Source: a virus. From it: a stretch of 41,035 bases of DNA. The position numbers and the translations under genes were made by a program. Shown in pieces: positions 1 through 20,206 of this stretch. The notes below the pieces were generated by a model. It saw nothing but the letters and a program-made list of their open reading frames with translations, searched no databases and was not told the origin of the DNA. The stretch spans positions 1 through 41,035 of IMG/VR virus record IMGVR_UViG_3300034375_004928; one strand, written 5' to 3'. Position 1 is the stretch's first letter. Every line of letters starts with the position of its first letter.

Positions 1-1
1 A

Positions 2-109
2 AATCCATTTGGTGTGGGAACTTTGGGCAACCGTGCGCTTTACCGAACAATTGGTGAAGTTGGCTGTTCATTCTTCAAAGGTCAAGGGAAGATAACAAAC
101 ATACAATGA
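2..109 (+). CDS. C-terminal end of an unidentified gene (partial, 5' end outside window)
   Basis: Reading frame 2 is open from the window edge to a TGA at 107-109 and encodes 35 residues ending in KGQGKITNIQ. The stop is followed directly by the Shine-Dalgarno sequence of the next gene (TGAGGTGATTTAGA), the same arrangement as most genes in this block, which supports it as real coding sequence. The fragment has a Gly- and aromatic-rich composition typical of a folded structural protein, and its position just upstream of small virion-protein genes would suit the major capsid protein. Too little sequence is present to claim that. Confidence 0.55.
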   Translation, partial: NPFGVGTLGNRALYRTIGEVGCSFFKGQGKITNIQ

Positions 110-1452: not shown

Positions 1453-1866
1453 ATGGCGGCATTAAACAACGATACTCGATTGGTTATGACAATTCTTTTT
1501 GTCGGAACCATTAGCGGAGCAAATGTGTATTTCTATTCAGCCTATGGTCTTAACTTTCCATATACGCCAATAGCACATTCAGTTCTTTTCGGATTGATTA
1601 CGGTTGGTGGAATCATGGTTATGAAAGCACTATTTGACTTATCACTTAATGATAAGATTGAAATACGCTTATTGGATAGGCAGATTGAAGCACACTTTCA
1701 GCGTGTAGCAAGAGAACAACAAATTAGACAGAAACTTCGTGAAAGTATGAAACAATACGGAGTAAATAAGAGGGAAGCATGGAATAATGTTTATCCCGAA
1801 ACCCCAACCGCTTCATTTGAAGAAAGCCAAATTCCAAACGAATTTTTGGCGACTATTCAACAATGA
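1453..1866 (+). CDS. Two-pass membrane protein with basic amphipathic helix
   Basis: A 137-residue protein. Two hydrophobic segments, about residues 9-30 (TILFVGTISGANVYFY) and 41-65 (SVLFGLITVGGIMVMKALF), are followed by a long charged helix (about 70-112: EIRLLDRQIEAHFQRVAREQ and onward) and a polar tail. The topology would place the helical tail on one face of the membrane. The ATG follows TGAGGTGATTTA. The next two genes encode another small membrane protein and a GTPase with a hydrophobic N-terminus, so the three could form a membrane complex; that is inference. No family recognised. Confidence 0.65.
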   Translation: MAALNNDTRLVMTILFVGTISGANVYFYSAYGLNFPYTPIAHSVLFGLITVGGIMVMKALFDLSLNDKIEIRLLDRQIEAHFQRVAREQQIRQKLRESMKQYGVNKREAWNNVYPETPTASFEESQIPNEFLATIQQ

Positions 1867-1875
1867 GGTGATTGA

Positions 1876-2100
1876 ATGGTTCTTAGTGATTTAATGGGTT
1901 TTTCCGACTCGGATTACGCATACAATCAACAAAGGGCGCATTCTGCTGATTTGTTTTTTATTAAGATGAGAGCGTGGTTTTGGGGCGGTTGCTCCACTCT
2001 ATTTTTTTTCTTAGTAGGTAATATTCTAGGAGTAGTCTTAGATATTAGTATAATGGGTAGTATTTTTGAATTATTTAAATCTTTATTTGGAGGCCATTGA
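1876..2100 (+). CDS. Small membrane protein, unknown
   Basis: A 74-residue protein with a polar N-terminus (about residues 1-30, SDSDYAYNQQRAHSADLFF) and one long or two short hydrophobic segments from residue 33 to 70 (WFWGGCSTLFFFLVGNILGV, then LDISIMGSIFELFKSLF). Its ATG follows TGAGGTGATTG, and its stop TGA directly abuts the ATG of the GTPase gene, whose Shine-Dalgarno sequence (GGAGG) lies inside this gene's last codons. Such tight coupling suggests that the two proteins are made together. A holin-like role is conceivable but nothing specific supports it. Confidence 0.6.
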   Translation: MVLSDLMGFSDSDYAYNQQRAHSADLFFIKMRAWFWGGCSTLFFFLVGNILGVVLDISIMGSIFELFKSLFGGH

Positions 2101-2769
2101 ATGTCAGTAATGGCTGGTTTCGCAATCTTAATTACAGAAGCAGTAGTTTCATTTTATAAAAAAGTTCACGCAATTAACTTTGGAGTCTATGGTTCAACAA
2201 TGGTAGGTAAAACAACCTTAAGCCATCAATTAAGAACGAGAGGTGAAGTTCAGCAAATCAACAGAAGAACAGTTGGATTAGAAAGGGCTTCAAGAAAAGT
2301 AATTAAATTTGATGGAGAATCCCATACATTAAAAAGTGCAGACATTGGTGGAGAAGCGATGTATTGGAAAGAATGGGTTAAAGATATGAAATCCCGCAAA
2401 GTAAGATACATTATTTTTATGATAGACCATAGGCACTTAGATTCACCTTCAAACTTAGACCACCAACTTGCTTGGAAATTTTTAGTAGATACAATCATGT
2501 CAAACAGATGGCCCAATGGTAAAAAGAAAAAAGATAACGATTACCCTATGGCAGTTAGTATTTGGGCAAATAAGTACGATATATGGGGAGAAAAATATCC
2601 ACTTAGAGAAGGACAGAAAATTGATAAACATGACATTTATGAGCCATTTAAATATGGAATGCGACAATTGAATGATAAAGGAATACCTACATTTAAATAT
2701 ATTGTTTCTGCGAAATCTGACCCTGAAATGGTCTATAAAGGAATTACTACACTGATAAAGGATTACTGA
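2101..2769 (+). CDS. Ras/Arf-like small GTPase with hydrophobic N-terminus
   Basis: A 222-residue P-loop GTPase. Visible motifs: G1 GSTMVGKTT (residues 31-39); a candidate switch I around RRTVGLE (about 55-61); G3 ADIGGEAMYW (80-89), resembling the D-x-G-G of Arf and SR-beta families; G4 NKYD (157-160), the guanine-specificity motif; and G5 SAK (203-205). Order and spacing are right for a complete TRAFAC small GTPase. Residues 4-19 are hydrophobic and precede the P-loop, so the protein could be membrane-anchored, like SRP-receptor beta. It is coupled to two membrane-protein genes upstream and a zinc-binding protein downstream. Its role in a virus is unknown: virion component, egress factor or modulator of host GTPase signalling are all open. 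Identity as a GTPase is secure from the motifs. Confidence 0.85.
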   Translation: MSVMAGFAILITEAVVSFYKKVHAINFGVYGSTMVGKTTLSHQLRTRGEVQQINRRTVGLERASRKVIKFDGESHTLKSADIGGEAMYWKEWVKDMKSRKVRYIIFMIDHRHLDSPSNLDHQLAWKFLVDTIMSNRWPNGKKKKDNDYPMAVSIWANKYDIWGEKYPLREGQKIDKHDIYEPFKYGMRQLNDKGIPTFKYIVSAKSDPEMVYKGITTLIKDY

Positions 2770-2773
2770 TATT

Positions 2774-3403
2774 ATGTACCAACAGCCAAATTTAATAAAT
2801 AACACGACAGCACAAAAGATGTTTTTACCTAAACTACAACAGTTTAGGTCGGCAGGTTCTATGGAAGAATACACATATACTGCACTTAAGCCTAAGAAAC
2901 AATTAAAAGAAATTAAAAAAGTTCTTCTTCCAGAAAAGAAAAAATTTATTTTTAAATATGGATATAAATTTAATTTAAAAGATAGATGTGTTGTATGTGG
3001 AATGCACCACATTTGGGAAGCCGGTGATTATTTAAGACCTCCGATACCTTTGGATAATGTCACCAAAGGAAGACCAATGAGAGGTACTTATTGTCAAAAA
3101 CACGCAGGTATTCATAAACAAATGGAAATGCTACAACAGCAGATATTAGCAGATGAACATGGTTTGGATTTCAAAGGTTTTATTCCAAAACCTAGAATGC
3201 CTAATGTGTTAAGAAGCAGCCCTTTAACTACATTAACCAAAGAACAAGTTATTTCTTTGACCTCAACCGGATGGCTTATAACGCCACCCGCATTGAAGGA
3301 AAGTGAGGGTGAGAGAGCAGAAGTTCTCCGACTTATTGCTGAAATAGAAATAAATACAGCAAGATTAAACTCAATAGTAAATAATGGTAAAAAGGAGGAA
3401 TAA
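2774..3403 (+). CDS. Cys/His zinc-binding protein, unknown
   Basis: A 209-residue protein with a basic N-terminal half and a metal site made of C72-x2-C75 with H78/H79 (CVVCGMHH) and C107, H110 and H114 (CQKHAGIHK). This spacing suits a single zinc site that bridges two loops. The rest has a proline-containing linker and a C-terminal helix (about 180-205, EGERAEVLRLIAEIEINTAR). It starts four bases after the GTPase stop, so it probably belongs to the same functional group. No nuclease signature (for example a complete HNH motif) is convincing. Function unknown. Confidence 0.65.
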   Translation: MYQQPNLINNTTAQKMFLPKLQQFRSAGSMEEYTYTALKPKKQLKEIKKVLLPEKKKFIFKYGYKFNLKDRCVVCGMHHIWEAGDYLRPPIPLDNVTKGRPMRGTYCQKHAGIHKQMEMLQQQILADEHGLDFKGFIPKPRMPNVLRSSPLTTLTKEQVISLTSTGWLITPPALKESEGERAEVLRLIAEIEINTARLNSIVNNGKKEE

Positions 3404-3405
3404 AT

Positions 3406-4077
3406 TTGGGAATTTTAGGAACAAGCAACGGAACAGTGATGAACGCTGTTCAAGCACAAGGCGACCAACAATTTAAAACTGTAAATAATCTATTATCTTT
3501 ACAAGATAACCATGTTGAAGAATTTTTCCAATATCACGGTGAGCAATTTTTAACCACTCTTGAAAAGTTGATGGAAGATGTTGTTGAAAGAGTAGTAAGC
3601 CAAATGCTTGCTAAGTTATCTTTTACAACAACAGGTTCAAAGATGACTATTGATGCTGATGCTATGAGAGAGTACGAAAGAATTACTCAAGAGAACATTG
3701 ATTTAGATATTCAAAGGATTCTTCAATCAGCCATTAACACAGAAGTAGTGAATCAAAGGAAACTTGCTAAGTCGCAATACCTCGAATCTCAAGGGTTTAG
3801 TGGTGGCGGTATGGGTGGCGGTATGAACCCTGCTGGACCCTCCGCAGGGATGGCAATAGCGGGTTTAACAGGCAACCAGCAACAATTCATGCAAGGACAA
3901 TCTGCTATGAATAACGGCAGTGGCTACCCAATTCCTCCAAGTGGAAATGATGGTTATGGTCGTCCTTATTGGATTGACCCACAAACGGGACAAATGAGTT
4001 ATGAACCACCTTCAAGCGGATTACATTTAGGTTCGGCCATTCAAAAAGGTGCGGCTTGGGCTAAATGGTTAATGTGA
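3406..4077 (+). CDS. Coiled-coil / Gly-rich structural protein with WW-like C-terminus
   Basis: A 223-residue protein. Residues 10-125 are mainly helical and probably coiled-coil. A Gly/Met-rich linker (about 130-180, FSGGGMGGGMNPAG) follows, then a C-terminal segment YGRPYWIDPQTGQMSYEPP (about 184-202). That segment resembles the last two strands of a WW domain; the first Trp is absent, so this is only a resemblance. Translation starts at TTG 3406 behind a strong GGAGGAATAAA. The low-complexity linker and position in the head/neck module suggest a virion protein. No family recognised. Confidence 0.6.
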   Translation: MGILGTSNGTVMNAVQAQGDQQFKTVNNLLSLQDNHVEEFFQYHGEQFLTTLEKLMEDVVERVVSQMLAKLSFTTTGSKMTIDADAMREYERITQENIDLDIQRILQSAINTEVVNQRKLAKSQYLESQGFSGGGMGGGMNPAGPSAGMAIAGLTGNQQQFMQGQSAMNNGSGYPIPPSGNDGYGRPYWIDPQTGQMSYEPPSSGLHLGSAIQKGAAWAKWLM

Positions 4078-4088
4078 GTTGATTCTTA

Positions 4089-5849
4089 TTGAATATTACC
4101 TACGACAATAATGATTTCCCTGTAAATTCTGGGGCCATAAAAAAAGAAATGGCTTTGTTTTTACTTAGAAATTATTTAGATATAGATTCTAACTCGTCTA
4201 GGAAATATAGACAAATTGCTAAGAATTTAGGAATTAAGAAGTTAAAAAAAGTTAATTCTAAGGATTGGAATGCTGATATTAGTAGAGAATGGACAAAAGC
4301 CCACACTACTGCACTAAACCAAATTCAAGGATTACCTATTGATGAATTAGTTTCTTTTACTAATAAAAAACTTAAAAGTTCTGGAAAGAAAAACATTGAA
4401 AGGTTATCTACTTTAAAAGGTAGAAAACTGAAAATAAAAGAACTTTCTGATGGCGACTTACTTTCTACTGCCTTCGCAGAACCTGAAGAAACAGAAAAAA
4501 GTAGAGAAAAAATAAAATTTTCAGAAAGTCAACGAAAAGAATATTTAGAACAAATTATTAAAGCAACAAAACCTACAACTAAAGTTGATACTACATCGGC
4601 TAAGTATGAAAAAGATGAAGACGGAAACAAAAAACTTACTGCTGGAACAGAAAAAACAATTACTACTAAAACATTTAAATTTTCTGAACCGACAGCAGAA
4701 GATTCTGGAAAACTTAAATTACTAGCAGATAATAATGTTAGAGGCATTTCTCTCATTCGTGCAGGGGGTAATGAACAAGCAGACACAGGGGATATTAAAC
4801 CCCTTACACAGTTTAATTATTTAAATCGTGGAAATTATAGTGACCGTTCCAAAAAAGAAAAAATTGCTTTAGCATGGGATGATAAAATAAGTTCAATGGA
4901 TAAAAGGCTTACAAATAAAGAGGCTATTGATTTTTTACGCAGTGGAATAAAAGAAACTTCTTTTGCTAATAAACTTATCATTCAATATATAAAATCCTAT
5001 AAATCAGGAGCAGAAAAAATACTACCATTCTTATCACAAAGAGGAACAAAACAAACCCAATCAAGGCTTCAAAGAGTAAGAAATCCTTTAGAACTAAAAG
5101 AAAAATTATATAATTTAGAATTTTTGTTTGGTAAAGTTTACAAAACGGATGATGAAGAACCTAAAGAATTAGAAACAATAGACGATTCCTTTGACAAATT
5201 ATTAGAGCAATATAAAGAATATAATTCTTTCAAGGATAAAAACACATCTTTAAAACAAAAAAATATGCCAAGAATAATATCGAACATGACTGTTCTTCTA
5301 AGTAAAATAAAGAGGAACATAAATCAACATAGTTCAGAACTAAAAGAAAAATTAAATTCTTTACTAGAAGTTAGAGAAAGTAAGGAAAAAAAGGCAAGCA
5401 CTTCTTCTAGGGATATTACTAAGAGTACAGATGCAAAAAAAGCCTTTGATAATTTCAAACAATGGTTTAGTTCTAAAGATGGATTTTTTGCTGACCTTAT
5501 TGATGACACTTATCATCTTTATTCTTTTGAAATTGTAGTTAAAAAAACAATTACCAAAGAAACTGAACAAGACGAAGAAGACAATACAGTAATAAAAACT
5601 ACACCTAACTATGAGTTCGTTTCTTTTAAAATATCCGAAACTCATGAAATTAGTAGGGGTAGTGCTAATACTAGAGTAAAAAGTGGAAAACAAACGGACG
5701 AACAAGGCTACTATTCTAAATATTCAAAAAGAGGTTATTCCCCTAAGTCATTGTATGACTTACCTTCTGAAGAAAAACAAAGTCTTAGGTATTTTGTAGG
5801 TTCAATACAATCAGGCATAGAAAAACTACAAAATAGACTAAATAACTAA
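4089..5849 (+). CDS. Large Lys-rich protein of unknown function
   Basis: A 586-residue, very Lys- and Glu-rich, largely helical protein without membrane segments. It probably starts at TTG 4089 (after GTGAGTTGATTCTTA); the first ATG lies well inside. Features: an N-terminal helical region (residues 15-110), a Thr-rich charged linker (about 160-200), a long helical core (about 230-450), and a C-terminal beta-containing part (about 480-560, YEFVSFKISETHEISRGSAN). A middle segment (SDRSKKEKIALAWDDKISSM) is followed by further helices. Its A/T content is higher than that of flanking genes. Position between head proteins and the adaptor suggests an internal head, scaffold or ejected protein. I do not recognise it. 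Confidence 0.55.
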   Translation: MNITYDNNDFPVNSGAIKKEMALFLLRNYLDIDSNSSRKYRQIAKNLGIKKLKKVNSKDWNADISREWTKAHTTALNQIQGLPIDELVSFTNKKLKSSGKKNIERLSTLKGRKLKIKELSDGDLLSTAFAEPEETEKSREKIKFSESQRKEYLEQIIKATKPTTKVDTTSAKYEKDEDGNKKLTAGTEKTITTKTFKFSEPTAEDSGKLKLLADNNVRGISLIRAGGNEQADTGDIKPLTQFNYLNRGNYSDRSKKEKIALAWDDKISSMDKRLTNKEAIDFLRSGIKETSFANKLIIQYIKSYKSGAEKILPFLSQRGTKQTQSRLQRVRNPLELKEKLYNLEFLFGKVYKTDDEEPKELETIDDSFDKLLEQYKEYNSFKDKNTSLKQKNMPRIISNMTVLLSKIKRNINQHSSELKEKLNSLLEVRESKEKKASTSSRDITKSTDAKKAFDNFKQWFSSKDGFFADLIDDTYHLYSFEIVVKKTITKETEQDEEDNTVIKTTPNYEFVSFKISETHEISRGSANTRVKSGKQTDEQGYYSKYSKRGYSPKSLYDLPSEEKQSLRYFVGSIQSGIEKLQNRLNN

Positions 5850-5862
5850 GGAGGTAAATAAA

Positions 5863-6981
5863 ATGGCAATTGCATCTTCCCCAAGCGACTATACTGCAAT
5901 CAATGTTGATTATTCAACAGGTAGTGGATATTATACTGATAAAGGTGCAGTATCAGATATGCTACAAGTTCCAGCATTTTCTACCTCAACTTATCCAACT
6001 CAAGCACAAGTGGGTTCAATCATTAAAAACATTGAAGGTATCATTGATGATAAAGTAAAGCGTTCTTATCGACCAATTATTTATAGAAATGAATTTCACA
6101 ACTTTGAATTTATTAGACACCCGATGCAATCTTATTATGGTGGCTATGTAGGTTTTGTTCAATTAGATACTTTGAAACTAAAGAAGGTTATTTCTTTACA
6201 AGTTTGGCAAGGAAACAGTTATCTTGAACTTGCTTCTGCCCAAGCGAGTTTAACCCTTGATACAACAGGATATAAAAATTTAAGAAGCATTACATTACAA
6301 TTACCTAACAGTGGAGATTCTTGGGTATTGTATCATCATGGTGAAGGTTCATTAGCCGCACATAATACATTCCATAATGGGTTTGGTTCAAAAACAACTG
6401 CTCAAGAGATTTGTCATTTAATTAACGAAGAATATCCTTCAAAGACAGCACAGTTCACAGGAGCAACAAGGGATAAAGTATTGACTTCTTCACCTAATGG
6501 CCTTAACATAAGTGATTTCTTCTATGCCAGCACAGACCCCGATAACGGCAACAAAGTGAACATTTCTAGCCTTTTAGCAGGGGAAGACGGCTCATATTGT
6601 ACCATCACCCTTGCAGATAAGGCGGGTCAAACCTCAAGCACTGATTCAGTTGTGTTCACTGATATGCAAGATATGAAGCGTCTTGGTTCTTTTTGGAGTA
6701 TAGGGGATGAGGGGCGCATTTTCTTCTTAAGGGACTATCCTTACCATACACAAAATTCAATCATTTGTACCTATATTGCAGGTAGTAATCGTGTTCCGTC
6801 TGCAATTCACAAAGCGGCTACTATGCTAGTTGCGGCTGAATTGCTTAGACATGACGACCAAACGATTCTAATTGCAGAAACAGGCGGCAACATCTCGACG
6901 AAGGAAAAGTATGATATACTCACAAAAGAAGCATACGATATACTCAAGGGCAAGGCCGACATGGTTTTCTTATTAGATTGA
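5863..6981 (+). CDS. Head-tail adaptor (gp6-like connector) with inserted domain
   Basis: A 372-residue protein. The N-terminal helix (about residues 43-70, TQAQVGSIIKNIEGIIDDKV) followed by a YRPIIYRNEF strand, and the C-terminal helices (about 312-370, SAIHKAATMLVAAELLRHDD), are typical of head-tail adaptors of the HK97 gp6/SPP1 gp15 type, which dock under the portal. The middle (about 140-290) is longer than in the usual adaptor and looks like an inserted beta domain. Bases about 6500-6730, which encode part of it, have visibly higher GC and different codon use. The next genes are a small helical protein and the neck/tail-terminator candidate, as expected. The Shine-Dalgarno sequence is GGAGGTAAATAAA. 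Confidence 0.6.
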   Translation: MAIASSPSDYTAINVDYSTGSGYYTDKGAVSDMLQVPAFSTSTYPTQAQVGSIIKNIEGIIDDKVKRSYRPIIYRNEFHNFEFIRHPMQSYYGGYVGFVQLDTLKLKKVISLQVWQGNSYLELASAQASLTLDTTGYKNLRSITLQLPNSGDSWVLYHHGEGSLAAHNTFHNGFGSKTTAQEICHLINEEYPSKTAQFTGATRDKVLTSSPNGLNISDFFYASTDPDNGNKVNISSLLAGEDGSYCTITLADKAGQTSSTDSVVFTDMQDMKRLGSFWSIGDEGRIFFLRDYPYHTQNSIICTYIAGSNRVPSAIHKAATMLVAAELLRHDDQTILIAETGGNISTKEKYDILTKEAYDILKGKADMVFLLD

Positions 6982-12539: not shown

Positions 12540-13643
12540 ATGTACGATGTATTAACAGGAAAACAAAGAGCATTAGTGTTCCCTGTTATGTGTAATGCAG
12601 ATGTTAAGATTGATTACTCAGACAATGTTCCAGATTCAGCAGATGATGTTGGTTATGGTATTTGGTCGCATGGTGGTGACTTTACCTTTGAGGCCATTGT
12701 GACTCCTTATGATATTAATGGGGCCGCTATTGCATCTTTAAGAGGAAGAACATTAAGCAATACTAAAAAAATAATGCCACATGCTGCTTCAAGTTCACAA
12801 AGCAATAGATACCTCCCAATAGCAGATGCTCTTACCCATGAAATGAGAATCTTTTCTAGCACTAATTTTTACATTTCTCTTAAAAATGCAACGACAACCA
12901 ATGCAAATCAACCTGCTGAATATAAAATTTTAGTTGGAATAAAATTAAGTAGTGGTGCAGTTCAAGAATTTACTACCGATAATGTTGTTATTATACCAAC
13001 TAAGGATAGGGCTTGGACTTACACTTCAACAGGATTATATGGATTTAATGAAGAAGGAAGAATTGAATATGATTTTGCCGCACTTGTGGATTCAAACTTT
13101 TCTTCGGGTGGAACTACAATTAGTTGTTCTTCGGTTGTTTCCGATACCATCTCCGAAGGTGAGCCGTTGTTCATCCGAGATGGGTACGATTTTACGGCCA
13201 TAGGGACCGTTTCTTCGACTGATACCTCCGCCAACACCATCACACTCGGCAGTGCCTACAATGCCGATATTTCCTCATCAACTCAATTACTACGAAGGAC
13301 TTATGCCGACCCAACCTATATCAACAATTCATTTCATATCGCTTGCACCTATGATGAAACTGCTAAAGAATTAAACATTTACTTTAATGGCTTATTGGTT
13401 AAAACTGGAACTCATGCACAGTCCGGTACATTTTCATTTGAAGATGAAGATTTATTTATTGGGGCCAATGGTAATAGAGAAGTTGGTATGAGTTCAGCAA
13501 TAGATAACAAACAATTTATGGGAGAAATGCATGAAATGTGTTTAACCTCAGTAATTCGCAGACGCTTTCCATCTATTACTAATTTACACCCGAATTATAA
13601 CGATACATTATTTTACTTTAGATTTGAAGAGGTGGACTTATGA
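12540..13643 (+). CDS. LamG/concanavalin-like tail-tip protein with inserted module
   Basis: A 367-residue protein with the pattern of a LamG/ConA-like jelly roll. An N-terminal strand GGDFTFEAIVTPYDINGAA (about residues 43-61) matches the F-T-x-E-A-W-V entry strand. A C-terminal part, SFHIACTYDETAKELNIYFN (about 263-282) followed by DLFIGANGNREVG and FMGEMHEMCLT, matches the H-V-A-x-T-Y-D...L-Y-V-N-G...I-G core. Between them lies an extra barrel-like module (about 183-250). The bases encoding it (about 13085-13300) are clearly richer in GC than the flanks, suggesting later acquisition. Such folds commonly bind carbohydrate, here possibly host surface glycans. Its stop overlaps the hub gene start (ATGA). 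Confidence 0.6.
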   Translation: MYDVLTGKQRALVFPVMCNADVKIDYSDNVPDSADDVGYGIWSHGGDFTFEAIVTPYDINGAAIASLRGRTLSNTKKIMPHAASSSQSNRYLPIADALTHEMRIFSSTNFYISLKNATTTNANQPAEYKILVGIKLSSGAVQEFTTDNVVIIPTKDRAWTYTSTGLYGFNEEGRIEYDFAALVDSNFSSGGTTISCSSVVSDTISEGEPLFIRDGYDFTAIGTVSSTDTSANTITLGSAYNADISSSTQLLRRTYADPTYINNSFHIACTYDETAKELNIYFNGLLVKTGTHAQSGTFSFEDEDLFIGANGNREVGMSSAIDNKQFMGEMHEMCLTSVIRRRFPSITNLHPNYNDTLFYFRFEEVDL

Positions 13644-16600
13644 CATTAGATGTATTTAATGAAGGTATGTTCGTCGCAACAAGCCAACCAAGTTCGGGAA
13701 CAGTTGCCTCCTATAATTTTGATGTTCCTACAAATCCAGTAATGACTACTCTCTCTACATCATTTACAAGTGGAGATGTTTTATTTTCTGCCATATATAC
13801 CGATGATAGTGAAGAAAGTGCTTTTAATGAAGTAATAAGTAGTGCTACATTACAAGCAGAATACGAAAATCTATCAGTGACAAAAGGATTCAATATTCAT
13901 TGTTTTGATACTGTTTCTTCAACAGGTGTTAGTTTAGCGACAATAGATGCCGCAACCGGCTCACCTAATATAAACACTCACTATTACTTTGTTTTAATTC
14001 ATTCCGACGACCATCTAAAACATCATTTTGCTAGAATTACAGAAATTAAAACTAGTGATGTATTAGGTGACTCTTTTGACTTTGAGCCAAAATTAGGAAA
14101 TGAAATTGCTCAAGGAACTAAATTTAAATTATACAAAGGGCCGGCAATTACTTCAAAGGGCGTTGCTTTTTCAGCAGGTATTAAGCAAGACCTAAAGACT
14201 TCATTACAAGTAGCAAGACCTCACTTTTGGTTTGTTAATGATTCTTTAGATAAAGATAATCAATTAGACCACAATACTAAATATTTTGCTAGAATAGATG
14301 GCGAGGGTGACGGAAGTAGCATTACATTAAATACTGCGGCAAATAGAGTTGCATTCCTAACAGTTTCCGATTATAAAGAAAAGGTAGTTGATTACAGTAA
14401 ATTTTCATTAAACGCCACTAGCCATGACACTTTAGAAAGACTAGATTATTTATTTCATAAGTATGGTAATACCTTTACTGCTACAACAGTAGCCGGTTCT
14501 GCTGAACTTACAATTACCGGCGGTAGTATGGATTCTACACTAATGTTCAAAGGTTTATCATTACAAGGAACAGGTATTAAAACAGGAACTAGTGGAACAG
14601 GAACAAATAAGTTCTTGTCTTTAGATTCAAGTAGTTCAACTAATAAAATAATTATGGAATTTGCAGCACATGGTAGTGCGACAATTACTGTGACAATGTT
14701 TGATAACGAAAGGTCTAATATTGGAACTGATGATGCAGATTATGATAATTATATTGAACATGCAAATAGAGATGTTGCTGATGCTGATGCAAAGAATGAC
14801 TTATCCGGCCCTACAAGATATTTACATTATGATTACTCTCCAACTAAAAACAATTCTACTATTAATGTTGTTGATTTAGAAGTTCAAGAATCTATTGGCA
14901 ACAAATCAAGTTATGCTGATTTAAAAATCTCCGACCCTTATCGTATCTTATCAAAGAAAATAATTAACTATGATGCCTTGCGAATAAGGCAAATGGTTCA
15001 TAGGGGCGACTTTAATGATTGGATTTCATTTGGAGCAACAATAACTTCATACACCTCTAAGAATGGTAGTAATCAACCACTTTATGCTATAAACACTCCT
15101 GTTGATTTAAGAGATTATTTAAATGTTAATGATGAAGTTTTAATCAATTCTAGAGTAATGATTGTGGTTGATTTAGATGCATCAAATCTTAGATTTAGGA
15201 CTGAGAGTAGATTAGAAACAGAATCTATATTTACTACTTCCACTAACTTAGAATCAATTGCGGCAGATACTGAAATTTATAGAAGAGCATGGAATACAAC
15301 AGATGGTACTCTTTTGACAGGAATGAAAATGATTGATGGTAGAGAGGGCGGTTTAACTATTTCTTTAATCAGTGATGAGTTTTCTCAATTAGAGGCAACA
15401 GTCACTTCGTATGTTTCTCAAACTGGATTATTAACCATATCTCTATTTAATCAAGGCTACGATACTAAGACAGCATTAGATAAAATGTCTGGGCAATATA
15501 TGATTTACAATGAAAAATTAAATGGTAGGATTACAAACCTCAAACAAGAAAAAGTTGATGGTGCTACCATAATGAATATCAATGGTGCTGATAAACTTAA
15601 AGAATTACTTGACCCAATTATAGAAAAAAATACATTGTTCTCAAAAGATATTGTGTATTCAACGGACAGCCCATATAATAAAGTCACAGCATTAGGAGCA
15701 AATGCAACAACTGAATTTACAAACAATACTTTGACTTTAAGTGGAAGCACTACACTAATTACAGGGGATAAAATATTTGCTAAGACGACTAGTGGCTCAA
15801 TGGTATATCTTGGAGAAATATCTTCCGGTGGAACAGGAACTTCCTTTTCATTTACTACTACCTGTAAAGGAGAAGTAGACACTAAAGCAGCATATAAAGC
15901 GTCAACAAAATATACGGTATTCAATAAAGCATTATCTTCTAATGCATTTGTTTCTTCTGCTACTAGTCTTTATGGTACTGCAAATAAAGGTCTTTTCTTT
16001 GAAAGTGGTACTACATTAGTGGATGGCGTCGAAACTGTTTCTCTTCCACCATCTTCTATAAATACTACTAATCCAAAATCAAGGGGATATTACTTAAGTG
16101 AAGCAAAGAACATGAAATCAGATAATCTCTTCCAAGCAAGATTAGATGATAATGCTTCAAGTAAATCATATTCCACCTTTGATACAGTTAATACACTTAT
16201 TGATTTTAATATTCTTTCTATTCAAGAAGTAGAAGGAAACCAAGTTATTGAAATCGCTCCACACATTCCATTAACATTGGCTAGAGTAGATAATAACTTC
16301 GGTAATACACAAGATATTGATGTTAAAATTCCTTTAGGGACTTTAAGTTCTGCGGCTGTTGCTTCCAGTGGGAATACCTATTTAGAAACAACTTCAATTC
16401 TTAGTTTATCTAGCACAACATTCCCAAGAAGGTATCATGGAAAGCCTTTGTATATTTCTGATGTTTTTGCAGGATTCATAGTACAAGCCAATTATTTTGG
16501 TGGCAACACTACAATTAGAATTTATATTGATAGAGTAATACCCGATGCAGATAATGGCTCTACATTACACACATTAGATGGTGGTTTGTTAAGAGATGGT

Positions 16601-19600
16601 AATTCTACGACAAATACTACAAATGAAACGACTAAATTAACTCATGAACTTTCAATATTAAATGGAGCGCATTTACACGGTGGTAAGATTATTGCACCTT
16701 TACACCCAAGTAGGAGCGCATCTTCAAGTGATGATGGAATGTATAACATTCTGGATATACCTTATTATTTTAATACGGGTACTTATTCAAAAACATTTGC
16801 TGATAGAACAGGTGCTTCGTATTACAGAATTATTAACTTAGAAAAAGGTAATGTGAATAACATTAAATCCAAAGTGACCTCTTATGCTGCATTTGGTGAT
16901 TTAACTTATTATGCAAGTATTATCAATAAGATTCCATATTACGCTTCTTCATATAAATTTAATCCTGCTTTCTATATTGATAGTGGATTACAAGATAATT
17001 TAACGGGTGTCAATAAAACAGATAATCCAGTTCGAGCGCACTCATTGATACAAACTAGGGGTTATGTTCCACCAAGCGGTTCTAAATTCTTTGATACTAT
17101 TGTTCATCCAACGGGTTCTGCCGCACTATATCTTTTACCGCCCGACCCCCATACTAACACAAGTGAATTAAAAACACCCTATGTAGCCAAAGACATTATT
17201 CAACAACCTGACCCTAAAGTAGCAAGAATGTTTTTATTCGTAAATTCTGACTTAAGAGCATATTCATCAACAAGAAAAGACAGTCTATTGTATTCTGGAC
17301 AAACTAGAGATATTACTTCTTATAACCTTCTTGCATTAACCGAACCAATAACAACTGAATCTTCAAACCCAAAAGATAATACTGGTGTCACAACTAAAAC
17401 AATAACACATAAAGATGGTAATTATTCATCGACTTCAATTATATCCAGCGACAAAACACTTTCTTCCTTAAATCGCTTTAGTATGATGCGTTTAACTGAA
17501 CTTTGTTTTGATTGGGCATTTAACCAATTTGACCCAGAAAATCCCCCTGCTGGTAATAAAACTCTTCCTGTGTTTTATTATCCACATGTTAGTATTGTTA
17601 GTTTAGGAAATATTTCTAGTATCAGTGGAACTCAAATTGATATGACCGCCATTATTACTATTGCTAATGGTGATTATATCTTGGATAGTGAAGGAAGGTA
17701 TATAGGTACGGTTTCCTCTAGTTCTACAATTTCAGGTAGTTTTACAAGAATCGTGACTACCGCCACAGCATATAAAACAAATGGTAATGCTTACTTTACT
17801 GGCGCAGGTGCTCAAAAAGTAATAGTTGCTACTGCTGAAGAAAAGGCTTTAATTTCTGGACATGGAGAAGTAGATACCTTTGTTAGATTTGGTAAAGAAA
17901 TACACATGCTTAGAAGTGCAGTTATTAACAATGCTGATGATGCTGTTAATAATGATATAGAAGGATATGGCACAAAAAAATCAGACGGCAGTAGTGGGGG
18001 TAGTGAATGGTCCGACCATTACGGCGTTGCTTTAGGGCATCAAAGCGCACCTGCTACAAAAGACCACAATACTTATGCTCCAATAGGAATAGAAGGAGAT
18101 AGCAAATTAGCAGAATCTTCAGCACTAGACCATCATCCATCTAAACTTTTCCAATTATTTGATGATTTAGATGATTTTACTGCCAATACAGATGCGGCAG
18201 GAGTGACAAGTGCTGATGAACTGTATATTAAAAGTTGGTTGCCTGTATTTTTAGATAGATTTAAAATAGAAGGAGGAAGTCAATTAGTTGATTCTGGAAT
18301 GGTTGGTGCTGAAATAACCGGTGCCAATAAGTATAGAGATAGCACTTCAACAAATAAAATAGGATTAGTTGGATTTGCATTAAATGAAAAATTTGCAGAT
18401 AAAGAAACCTTGGACCATTCTGCAAATATAACTTATTCTAATACAGCAGATGGAGCGATGTTAGCATTCAAACCAAGACTAAAAATAGATACAAGTGCTC
18501 ATTATGATGGTTCTAATAGCCCAGATAAAGCAATAGGAGCATCCGATATTATTAGGTATTTTATTCCTGCAAGTGGTGAACATACTTGGCTAAAGTTTGT
18601 TGATTTAACTGGAACATATTTAGCATCAACAATAGGTAAATATGTGGATAGCGGTGGAACACAGGGAAGTTTAACCACAGGCCAAACTAAAAGTCTTAAT
18701 GACGCAACTCCAACAACATTAGCATATGTTATTTCTCACGAAATAGACCACAGCAACGGAACTGAAACTCACATTATTGTCACGGATAGAAGTTTAACAA
18801 GTGATTATTATAGAGTCCTTCAACCAAATCATACTTTTTCATATGATTATTCACCCAAAAAGATACAACTAAATACTCTTTCTTCTTCTTATACTAAAAA
18901 ACCATACTCTCAAGAAATGTATAGTGGAATCAATGCATATCAATTACAAAATGCTAAAGGAGATAGGGATTTACAAGGAAATAATGAAGGTATTTTATCA
19001 ATGTATGTTTTAGTAGACATTGAAAATTTATCCTCAGATACAGAAACTGTTGTCACTACTGACTCAATGGATAACATATTAGAAAATAAAAGTGGAAAGT
19101 ATTGTGTGAGTGACGGAGAAAATGTATATTCTACTGAACTAACATATGAAAGCGTTTCTTCACATGAAAAGTTTATTTCCTTTTCACAAATTAAAGAAAC
19201 AATTGGTGTAGTTTCAGTTTCGGAAATTACATCAATTACGGTTGGTGGAGAGTCACCAATTGACACCAATTCAAAAAGAGCCATGATTGGTTCTGTCGTT
19301 AGTATTTGCCAAGAAGCAGACGACCTCATAGAAGAATTGCTTGAAGAACAAGACACACCATTTACTATCACAAAAGAAACTTATCCTCTTTTCGTTGCTC
19401 CTAACTTTGACGGCATCAGTATCTTTGAAGCAATTAACTTCTTGCTAAGAAAGAAAGAACAGACCCTAATACAAAAGAATGAAACCTTTGAAATAAAACC
19501 AAAAGACTCATCTGGCTTTTACAATGACCTACTCATTAGCGATAACGGCGATATTAGAATCTATGAATACGAAGTGTTAGATAGCACATTTGAAGAATAC

Positions 19601-20206
19601 AATGAAATCATAGTCAATGGTAAATCTCACAAATCTAAGAAACAAGACCTAAGAAGCGTTAAGAAGGTTGGAAGAAAAACACTCAAGGTCTTTGAAAGAA
19701 AACTAACAACTCAAGAAGAAGTTGATACGAGAGCAAAGGAACTTCTTATTCTACATAAAGGCGACAATAAAAAACTTAGAATTAAAATAGGACATAATAA
19801 TATAAGCCAAATACAAGTTGGTGATGTTGTCAATGTAGAAGTTAAACAGGAAAACATACCTAGAAATCAATACATCGTTTTAGAAATTACCCACCTAATG
19901 ACCGGCTTACTTGAATTAGAATTAGGTAAATACAGCAAACAGTTAGAAGATAGATTTTCCGAACTTACTGTTGATGTTGATACTGCTCAGACATTACAGA
20001 ATACTAAAAACAATGAGCAATCAACTGTTCTTGGTTTCTTAGAAACTGTTAAAATTAAACCAATTAGATTATTAGTTCGCAAACGAGCAACAACGGGTTC
20101 AATGACACTTGGATTCACGACAGCATTAAATACAGGAACAGCACCACTTGGATTCACAGGTGGGGCCACAATCACCTATACAGACTTAGTGGAGGAAGAA
20201 TTTTGA
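13640..20206 (+). CDS. Giant tail hub / baseplate protein (2188 residues)
   Basis: Two regions look like halves of a gpD/gp27/gp44-type tail hub. One is about residues 565-660 (DGREGGLTISLISDEF, then LNGRITNLKQEKVDG and a DKLKELL helix). The other is about 1855-2150 (SVSEITSITVGG, GISIFEAINFLLRKKEQTLI, EEYNEIIVNGKSHKSKKQDL, TTQEEVDTRAKELL, and a SQIQVGDVVNVEV strand). Between them are about 1200 extra residues with several barrel-like modules, for example around 1322-1385 (GDYILDSEGRYIGTVSSSS). The N-terminal 500 residues are also beta-rich. The hub organises the tail tip; the insertions probably form a surface-exposed host-binding structure. No cleavage or lytic domain was recognised. Confidence 0.6.
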   Translation: MTLDVFNEGMFVATSQPSSGTVASYNFDVPTNPVMTTLSTSFTSGDVLFSAIYTDDSEESAFNEVISSATLQAEYENLSVTKGFNIHCFDTVSSTGVSLATIDAATGSPNINTHYYFVLIHSDDHLKHHFARITEIKTSDVLGDSFDFEPKLGNEIAQGTKFKLYKGPAITSKGVAFSAGIKQDLKTSLQVARPHFWFVNDSLDKDNQLDHNTKYFARIDGEGDGSSITLNTAANRVAFLTVSDYKEKVVDYSKFSLNATSHDTLERLDYLFHKYGNTFTATTVAGSAELTITGGSMDSTLMFKGLSLQGTGIKTGTSGTGTNKFLSLDSSSSTNKIIMEFAAHGSATITVTMFDNERSNIGTDDADYDNYIEHANRDVADADAKNDLSGPTRYLHYDYSPTKNNSTINVVDLEVQESIGNKSSYADLKISDPYRILSKKIINYDALRIRQMVHRGDFNDWISFGATITSYTSKNGSNQPLYAINTPVDLRDYLNVNDEVLINSRVMIVVDLDASNLRFRTESRLETESIFTTSTNLESIAADTEIYRRAWNTTDGTLLTGMKMIDGREGGLTISLISDEFSQLEATVTSYVSQTGLLTISLFNQGYDTKTALDKMSGQYMIYNEKLNGRITNLKQEKVDGATIMNINGADKLKELLDPIIEKNTLFSKDIVYSTDSPYNKVTALGANATTEFTNNTLTLSGSTTLITGDKIFAKTTSGSMVYLGEISSGGTGTSFSFTTTCKGEVDTKAAYKASTKYTVFNKALSSNAFVSSATSLYGTANKGLFFESGTTLVDGVETVSLPPSSINTTNPKSRGYYLSEAKNMKSDNLFQARLDDNASSKSYSTFDTVNTLIDFNILSIQEVEGNQVIEIAPHIPLTLARVDNNFGNTQDIDVKIPLGTLSSAAVASSGNTYLETTSILSLSSTTFPRRYHGKPLYISDVFAGFIVQANYFGGNTTIRIYIDRVIPDADNGSTLHTLDGGLLRDGNSTTNTTNETTKLTHELSILNGAHLHGGKIIAPLHPSRSASSSDDGMYNILDIPYYFNTGTYSKTFADRTGASYYRIINLEKGNVNNIKSKVTSYAAFGDLTYYASIINKIPYYASSYKFNPAFYIDSGLQDNLTGVNKTDNPVRAHSLIQTRGYVPPSGSKFFDTIVHPTGSAALYLLPPDPHTNTSELKTPYVAKDIIQQPDPKVARMFLFVNSDLRAYSSTRKDSLLYSGQTRDITSYNLLALTEPITTESSNPKDNTGVTTKTITHKDGNYSSTSIISSDKTLSSLNRFSMMRLTELCFDWAFNQFDPENPPAGNKTLPVFYYPHVSIVSLGNISSISGTQIDMTAIITIANGDYILDSEGRYIGTVSSSSTISGSFTRIVTTATAYKTNGNAYFTGAGAQKVIVATAEEKALISGHGEVDTFVRFGKEIHMLRSAVINNADDAVNNDIEGYGTKKSDGSSGGSEWSDHYGVALGHQSAPATKDHNTYAPIGIEGDSKLAESSALDHHPSKLFQLFDDLDDFTANTDAAGVTSADELYIKSWLPVFLDRFKIEGGSQLVDSGMVGAEITGANKYRDSTSTNKIGLVGFALNEKFADKETLDHSANITYSNTADGAMLAFKPRLKIDTSAHYDGSNSPDKAIGASDIIRYFIPASGEHTWLKFVDLTGTYLASTIGKYVDSGGTQGSLTTGQTKSLNDATPTTLAYVISHEIDHSNGTETHIIVTDRSLTSDYYRVLQPNHTFSYDYSPKKIQLNTLSSSYTKKPYSQEMYSGINAYQLQNAKGDRDLQGNNEGILSMYVLVDIENLSSDTETVVTTDSMDNILENKSGKYCVSDGENVYSTELTYESVSSHEKFISFSQIKETIGVVSVSEITSITVGGESPIDTNSKRAMIGSVVSICQEADDLIEELLEEQDTPFTITKETYPLFVAPNFDGISIFEAINFLLRKKEQTLIQKNETFEIKPKDSSGFYNDLLISDNGDIRIYEYEVLDSTFEEYNEIIVNGKSHKSKKQDLRSVKKVGRKTLKVFERKLTTQEEVDTRAKELLILHKGDNKKLRIKIGHNNISQIQVGDVVNVEVKQENIPRNQYIVLEITHLMTGLLELELGKYSKQLEDRFSELTVDVDTAQTLQNTKNNEQSTVLGFLETVKIKPIRLLVRKRATTGSMTLGFTTALNTGTAPLGFTGGATITYTDLVEEEF

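Follow-up and report, generated by a model that had tools for sequence, protein, structure and literature searches.

A small GTPase gene in a conserved five-gene cassette of tailed viruses of Poseidoniales archaea

Genomic setting of the GTPase gene

We analysed a 41,035-nucleotide stretch of viral DNA (IMG/VR record IMGVR_UViG_3300034375_004928, positions 1 to 41,035; hereafter the window). It is a piece of a magrovirus genome; magroviruses are viruses of Poseidoniales archaea. Magrovirus genomes place a polymerase, a ligase and an ERCC4 nuclease opposite the head-tail module (PMC10160649; PMC10768690). The window has this Magrovirales layout, with a family B polymerase, an ATP-dependent ligase, and ERCC4-type and PD-(D/E)XK nucleases on the opposite strand. 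In near-full-length relatives from the window's lineage the polymerase is split, and several of them also encode a chaperonin. Both features have been reported for Aoguangviridae, suggesting that the window's lineage belongs to this family.

The major capsid protein (MCP) gene is followed by small head genes, the block of genes described here, a putative head-tail connector, and genes for a neck protein, the major tail protein, a tail assembly chaperone and the tape measure protein. A family search from the putative connector also recovers halovirus ORFs at the same position, equivalent to HVTV-1 gene 125. A 2188-aa ORF located 3' of the tail genes (window 13640-20206) is probably a tail or receptor-binding protein.

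The block contains a cassette of five genes in fixed order (Table 1). These encode a two-pass membrane protein (MP1), a one-pass membrane protein (MP2), a small GTPase, a zinc-knuckle protein and a helical protein. The MP1 and MP2 genes precede the GTPase gene, mostly without gaps. The GTPase ORF is intact, and its ATG abuts the TGA of the preceding gene. The MP1 motif D-T-R-L..M-T-I-L-F-V-G is conserved in 153 relatives, and a soluble RAHSAD motif in MP2 is near-invariant (156 relatives).

Searches of Pfam and PDB with the zinc-knuckle and helical proteins returned nothing convincing, and the cassette contains no recognisable GAP, GEF or roadblock-type regulator. The end of the helical protein gene (window 3949-4011, PYWIDPQTGQMSYEPP) resembles a WW domain, with a Pfam WW match in 4 of 13 relatives (best E 2.8e-4). 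MP1 is not supported as a homologue of gp124, a membrane protein of HVTV-1 (hhalign probability 0.3%).

Table 1. Features at the GTPase locus, numbered from the first nucleotide of the window.
Feature	Position	Strand	Description and basis
C-terminal end of major capsid protein (context)	1..108	+	NPFGVGTLGNRALYRTIGE..ITNIQ-stop matches the magrovirus MCP C-terminus aligned with HVTV-1 MCP
Cassette gene 1 (MP1)	1453..1866	+	137 aa; two predicted membrane passes and charged C-terminal tail; hydropathy; always with the GTPase
Cassette gene 2 (MP2)	1876..2100	+	74 aa; one predicted membrane pass; hydropathy; conservation in 156 relatives
GGAGG, Shine-Dalgarno-like	2089..2093	+	7 bases 5' of the GTPase start; sequence
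Cassette gene 3, small GTPase (the finding)	2101..2769	+	222 aa; motifs, conservation, Pfam/NCBIfam matches, AlphaFold2 model, Foldseek
N-terminal helix, residues 3-22, ahead of strand 1	2107..2166	+	Model, hydropathy, near-invariant Glu13
G1/P-loop GSTMVGKTT, residues 31-39	2191..2217	+	Sequence; GKTT invariant in both virus lineages
Switch-I Thr57 within RTVG	2269..2271	+	R56 and T57 invariant in both lineages
G3/switch II, D81-I-G-G-E...W89..W92	2341..2376	+	D81, G83, G84, W89 and W92 invariant in both lineages; position 85 is Q/E/D
G4 NKYD, residues 157-160	2569..2580	+	NKxD invariant in both lineages
G5 SAK, residues 203-205	2707..2715	+	Invariant in the window's lineage; MATR instead in the second lineage
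Cassette gene 4, zinc-knuckle-like protein	2774..3403	+	209 aa; C-x2-C ... GTYC-x2-H; invariant C72, C75, C107, H110
Cassette gene 5, helical protein	3406..4077	+	223 aa; TTG start; conserved NNLLSLQxNHVEEFFQYHG and C-terminal AWAKWL
Hypervariable follower gene, outside the conserved cassette	4089..5849	+	586 aa here, 377-1153 aa elsewhere; mostly unalignable across relatives
Putative head-tail connector (right border, context)	5863..6981	+	PHROG 17057 match, E 3.2e-14; this PHROG has no known function

The GTPase has a predicted Ras-superfamily fold

A sequence-only reading of this DNA had proposed that the gene encodes a complete small GTPase with five G motifs in order. All five are present, and GKTT, RT(V/E)G, DxGG, NKxD, SAK, Trp89 and Trp92 are essentially invariant among 159 distinct relatives. 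The window protein matches the Pfam families Roc (E 0.0019), SRPRB (0.005), MMR_HSR1 (0.008) and Ras (0.01) and the NCBIfam family TIGR00231 small_GTP (0.0014), in each case below the curated cut-off. These sub-cut-off scores mark a limit of sensitivity and are not a biological criterion. More divergent relatives match MMR_HSR1 (E 1.2e-5) and SRPRB, Roc and Arf (8e-5 to 2e-4). The profile search thus recovered small-GTPase families and not terminases or packaging ATPases, as the sequence-only reading had led us to expect, with the window protein itself under the curated cut-offs.

A first AlphaFold model, built from an alignment of 39 close, near-identical relatives, had a pLDDT of 54.6 and no significant fold match. 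A widened alignment of 51 diverse sequences yielded an AlphaFold2 model with pLDDT 74 and pTM 0.74. This model has the expected GTPase fold, with elements in the order helix, b1, a1, b2, b3, a2, b4, a3, b5, a4, b6, a5, the canonical G-domain topology. Among the 1572 PDB matches returned by Foldseek at E<=0.001, the top 50 consist entirely of Ras, Rab, Arf and G-alpha proteins. Target-normalised TM scores include 0.75 for Arl2, 0.72 for Rab5c and 0.69 for the Asgard protein GerdArfR1 (8oum, rank 4). Placement of the window protein as a genuine Ras-superfamily small GTPase (TRAFAC class) is therefore well supported by its predicted fold and motifs. The protein likely binds and hydrolyses GTP and would act as a nucleotide-controlled switch, judging from its sequence. 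A terminase, packaging or generic P-loop ATPase, the last already set aside in the earlier reading, is ruled out by the invariant NKxD and by the best 50 Foldseek matches, all of them GTPases. A separate terminase is also present in the second lineage described below.

The GTPase has part of the Arf switch-II signature: D81-x-G-G-[QED], W92 (at Asp+11) and GKTT are invariant, while the pre-Asp Trp and the Arg are absent. The interswitch from Thr57 to Asp81 spans 24 residues in the window GTPase; the corresponding length is 19 residues in human Arf1 and 22 in H-Ras. Because it lacks the short interswitch, which in Arf proteins permits the toggle, the GTPase cannot be filed under Arf. As modelled, it mixes Arf-like features (GKTT, DxGG...W and the N-terminal helix) with Ras/Rab-like ones (the long interswitch and SAK).

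The position of the catalytic Gln (residue 85) is Glu in the window GTPase. Across the window's lineage it is Gln in 39 and Glu in 120 of 159 distinct sequences, with three Q/E changes on the most parsimonious tree, and in the second lineage the Q/E/D counts are 25/19/6. The Ras variant Q61E is known to hydrolyse GTP. By analogy, Gln and Glu at this position would both be compatible with hydrolysis.

The N-terminus has a median 19-residue hydropathy of 1.62 and a moment of 0.30 in the window's lineage. The same region is far less hydrophobic in the second lineage (0.99), and Glu13 within the helix is kept in 158 of 159 relatives of the window protein. Because of this near-invariant Glu13 and the low hydropathy in the second lineage, we find no convincing transmembrane segment. 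The proposed likeness to the membrane anchor of SRP receptor beta is not supported: conservation of the helix does not extend to a transmembrane character, and SRPRB is only one of several sub-threshold matches.

Conservation and occurrence of the GTPase

At least 368 IMG/VR stretches encode relatives of the window-type GTPase. Selection on the gene is strongly purifying: among near relatives dN/dS is ~0.03-0.05, with dN of 0.02-0.05 against dS of 0.7-1.1. Of the genes compared in near relatives, conservation is highest for the GTPase (80%) and the helical protein (79%), with 34 to 66% for the rest.

The GTPase has no match in PHROGs and no credible match in 50,697 annotated phage records, in line with the sequence-only reading, to which small GTPases of this type were not a known part of tailed-virus structural operons. 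Small-GTPase switches were not known as core parts of tailed viruses. A pattern search of 84,980 bacterial and archaeal species genomes recovered no close cellular relative. The only match was a viral contig inside a bacterial MAG labelled Maricaulis (L088; NZMJ01000024.1, 12.2 kb), which encodes an 80%-identical GTPase and is probably a misbinned magrovirus contig. Another relative lies on a 184.7-kb contig (L060; IMGVR_UViG_3300021958_000021), about twice the usual magrovirus size, which is either a larger virus or an assembly concatemer.

The main texts of the magrovirus papers covered here mention no GTPase, and an earlier annotation elsewhere is possible. To our knowledge, archaeal tailed viruses were not previously known to have a conserved GTPase cassette.

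The five genes are inherited together

Among loci of the window's lineage for which both flanks are available, 161 contain all five genes in the same order, 5 contain none, and mixed cases number 0. Because the GTPase served to find most of the 161 loci, its presence there follows from the search itself, and certain loci are pieces of a single contig that overlap. What is informative is that the remaining four genes always accompany the GTPase and are missing when it is missing. The gene is conserved in synteny inside a structural operon, a setting in which the sequence-only reading had missed the five-gene cassette and its two predicted membrane proteins.

We obtained a GTPase-independent sample by searching with the capsid protein and ranking by distance to HVTV-1. 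In this search, 34 loci have both flanking genes; the GTPase is present in 29 and absent in 5. A cassette-free sister clade has the block and the hypervariable gene replaced by one unrelated protein of ~1000 aa. In three contigs of this clade (61-94 kb), neither GTPase profile found a match, and the GTPase is also absent from the haloviruses HVTV-1 and HCTV-1. The existence of a sister magrovirus clade without the cassette implies that its function is dispensable or replaceable. A single gain of the cassette in one magrovirus clade, considered on an MCP tree, is too simple a history: L120, labelled cassette-free, carries the cassette elsewhere in its genome.

A second magrovirus-like lineage carries the cassette

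A whole-record search identified a 106.9-kb magrovirus-like virus with a GTPase 32-33% identical to that of the window. This virus encodes a two-pass membrane protein with a charged tail, a one-pass membrane protein, the GTPase, a zinc protein and a helical protein. A further scan identified 56 second-lineage loci, many of them on contigs of 100-110 kb; genomes of this lineage measure 100-109 kb. All five genes are present in 54 of the 55 second-lineage loci with a GTPase; their order is constant, and a terminase gene mostly comes next. The second-lineage cassette lies elsewhere in the late region, upstream of the terminase and portal genes. In one second-lineage genome that was read through, the capsid gene is ~20 kb from the cassette.

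Profile-profile comparison (hhalign) between the lineages gave 99.9% probability for the GTPase (3e-36), 96.6% for the zinc protein (5.8e-10) and 77% for the helical protein (E 2e-5), where mismatched (off-diagonal) pairs used as a control reached ~16% or less. Such comparison confirms, at the level of sequence profiles, homology of the GTPase and zinc protein between the lineages and supports homology of the helical protein. MP1 and MP2 gave no profile-profile sequence match between the lineages and are alike in order, size and topology only. Since their homology is not demonstrable, the membrane link rests on these three likenesses. Residues invariant across both lineages include GKTT, R56-T57, D81-x-G-G, W89, W92 and A-N-K-x-D, among others.

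The second-lineage chaperonin scores far above that of the window's lineage on Cpn60_TCP1. From this score, the second lineage appears to fit the thermosome-type clade of PMC5332604 and the 108-kb Apasviridae. Many second-lineage loci also have a short AbrB-like ORF (SLRTTVP..W) between the GTPase and zinc genes (for example L310:10767 and L313:10101).

Comparison with known small-GTPase systems

Like Arf and Asgard ArfR proteins, the viral GTPase has GKTT, D-x-G-G-Q/E, a Trp at Asp+11 and a helix directly before strand 1. Unlike them, it has the 24-residue interswitch, a G5 motif of SAK or MATR, and no N-terminal Gly for lipidation; sequence identity is ~20% or less. The fold, long interswitch and SAK motif are shared with Ras and Rab proteins, and many second-lineage GTPases contain GGQERF, similar to the GQERF of Rab switch II. 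The viral GTPase differs from Ras and Rab in having DxGG in place of DTAG, an N-terminal helix and no C-terminal lipidation tail. SRP receptor beta is likewise a small GTPase found beside membrane proteins, with a sub-threshold Pfam match, but the viral protein has no consistent transmembrane anchor and no recognised SR-alpha partner.

Ras-superfamily proteins are also encoded by giant viruses such as pithoviruses (listed in BFVD), although the matches are weak and these viruses have eukaryotic hosts. We know of no comparable five-gene cassette in giant viruses. Among tailed viruses, Druskaviridae (HVTV-1) share the order of MCP, small head genes, one membrane protein, connector, neck and major tail protein, but have no GTPase and no zinc or helical protein of the cassette families.

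Possible roles of the cassette

The switch is invariantly linked with two membrane and two soluble proteins, in two lineages and at two genomic positions, and a membrane-docked control complex best explains this linkage. Our leading, still tentative, proposal is that the GTPase switches a membrane-docked five-gene module whose action comes late, in assembly or release of the virus. The GTPase would be made late alongside the virion genes and would alternate between GDP- and GTP-bound forms. One of these forms would dock on the archaeal cell membrane from the inside, using the N-terminal helix together with those parts of MP1 and MP2 that face the cytoplasm. The docked GTPase would then recruit the zinc-knuckle and helical proteins, bringing the five products into physical interaction. 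This recruitment may time or place a late membrane step, either anchoring of the assembly site or particle exit.

The main rival, which we regard as rather unlikely, places the five products in the virion. A GTPase in the head or neck would then act at entry, with the membrane proteins forming or stabilising a passage through the host membrane and the GTPase controlling its opening or genome delivery. In the window's lineage the cassette lies between the capsid/decoration genes and the connector, a usual location for virion proteins, and terminase and portal genes lie downstream of it in the second lineage. Its position relative to the head genes is not fixed, however, and Druskaviridae and a sister magrovirus clade lack the cassette yet make virions of the same kind. 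In the window, the cassette directly precedes the connector region, a location that would also suit a role of the GTPase at the head-tail junction, as a regulator of assembly or a chaperone whose clients are the zinc and helical proteins; membrane contact would then be incidental. In favour of this role are the tight linkage of the GTPase with the two soluble proteins and the detectable homology of exactly these three products between lineages. We nevertheless consider it unlikely, given that the two membrane proteins are equally linked (161/161) and that the second-lineage module is far from the capsid gene.

The GTPase could instead mimic a small-GTPase or membrane system of the host, or interfere with one, such as that for division or surface organisation. 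Small GTPases commonly act at membranes, and the fold resembles the Arf and Rab families. The strict linkage with four other viral genes argues for viral partners, and with the patterns used no close cellular relative emerged from the species genomes, making such interference improbable. Least probable of all, and by our estimate very much so, is a pseudo-GTPase that serves as a structural part without switching. The Glu in place of the catalytic Gln would fit such a role in the window protein, but all nucleotide-binding motifs and the switch-I Thr are conserved, and Q, E and D alternate repeatedly at the catalytic position, a pattern compatible with hydrolysis that is tuned and not lost.

Membrane traffic in eukaryotes is characterised by regulated small GTPases, and recent work has followed Arf-type switches back to Asgard archaea (review PMC12554972). 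A broader extension of the membrane-docked module, which we consider possible but doubtful, is that tailed viruses of Poseidoniales have a small-GTPase membrane system of their own. In such a system, a switch of Arf type, equipped with its own membrane receptors and effectors, would direct the assembly or exit of virions to the host membrane. The system would predate the split of the two magrovirus lineages or be shared by transfer and, if true, would represent a trafficking-style mechanism in a prokaryotic virus. A conserved and strictly linked GTPase in widespread marine archaeal viruses suggests nucleotide-switched steps late in the viral cycle, which tailed phages are not known to need. 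The five-gene set is directly expressible and testable, and the GTPase can serve as a marker gene for these uncultured viruses.

Insertion sites and a shared protein tag

The borders of the GTPase gene are insertion hot spots in the window's lineage, with inserts between MP2 and the GTPase in 21 loci and between the GTPase and the zinc gene in 42 loci. The MP1-MP2 and zinc-helical borders almost never have inserts, and the window itself has none. The inserts are cargo-like genes that carry a short tag, and by eye they resemble acetyltransferases, metallopeptidases and nucleotidyltransferases.

The tag is mostly N-terminal and is common to many unrelated proteins (for example L019:9479-9988, L067:2139-2714 and L016:3814-4317, and L293:10057-10425 in the second lineage). 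In the window's lineage, MWx[DN][IL]LK occurs in 84 of 5542 ORFs, compared with 0.45 expected by shuffling, and these ORFs form 28 sequence clusters. A SPLDxAWxILK-type tag in the second lineage has 176 matches in 1251 ORFs (1.0 expected). We rejected a functional tie between the GTPase cassette and the N-terminal MWx[DN]ILK tag because cassette-free magroviruses (L333, L341, L345) are tagged too; HCTV-1 has no tag. From its sequence distribution, this looks like a magrovirus-wide targeting or packaging tag.
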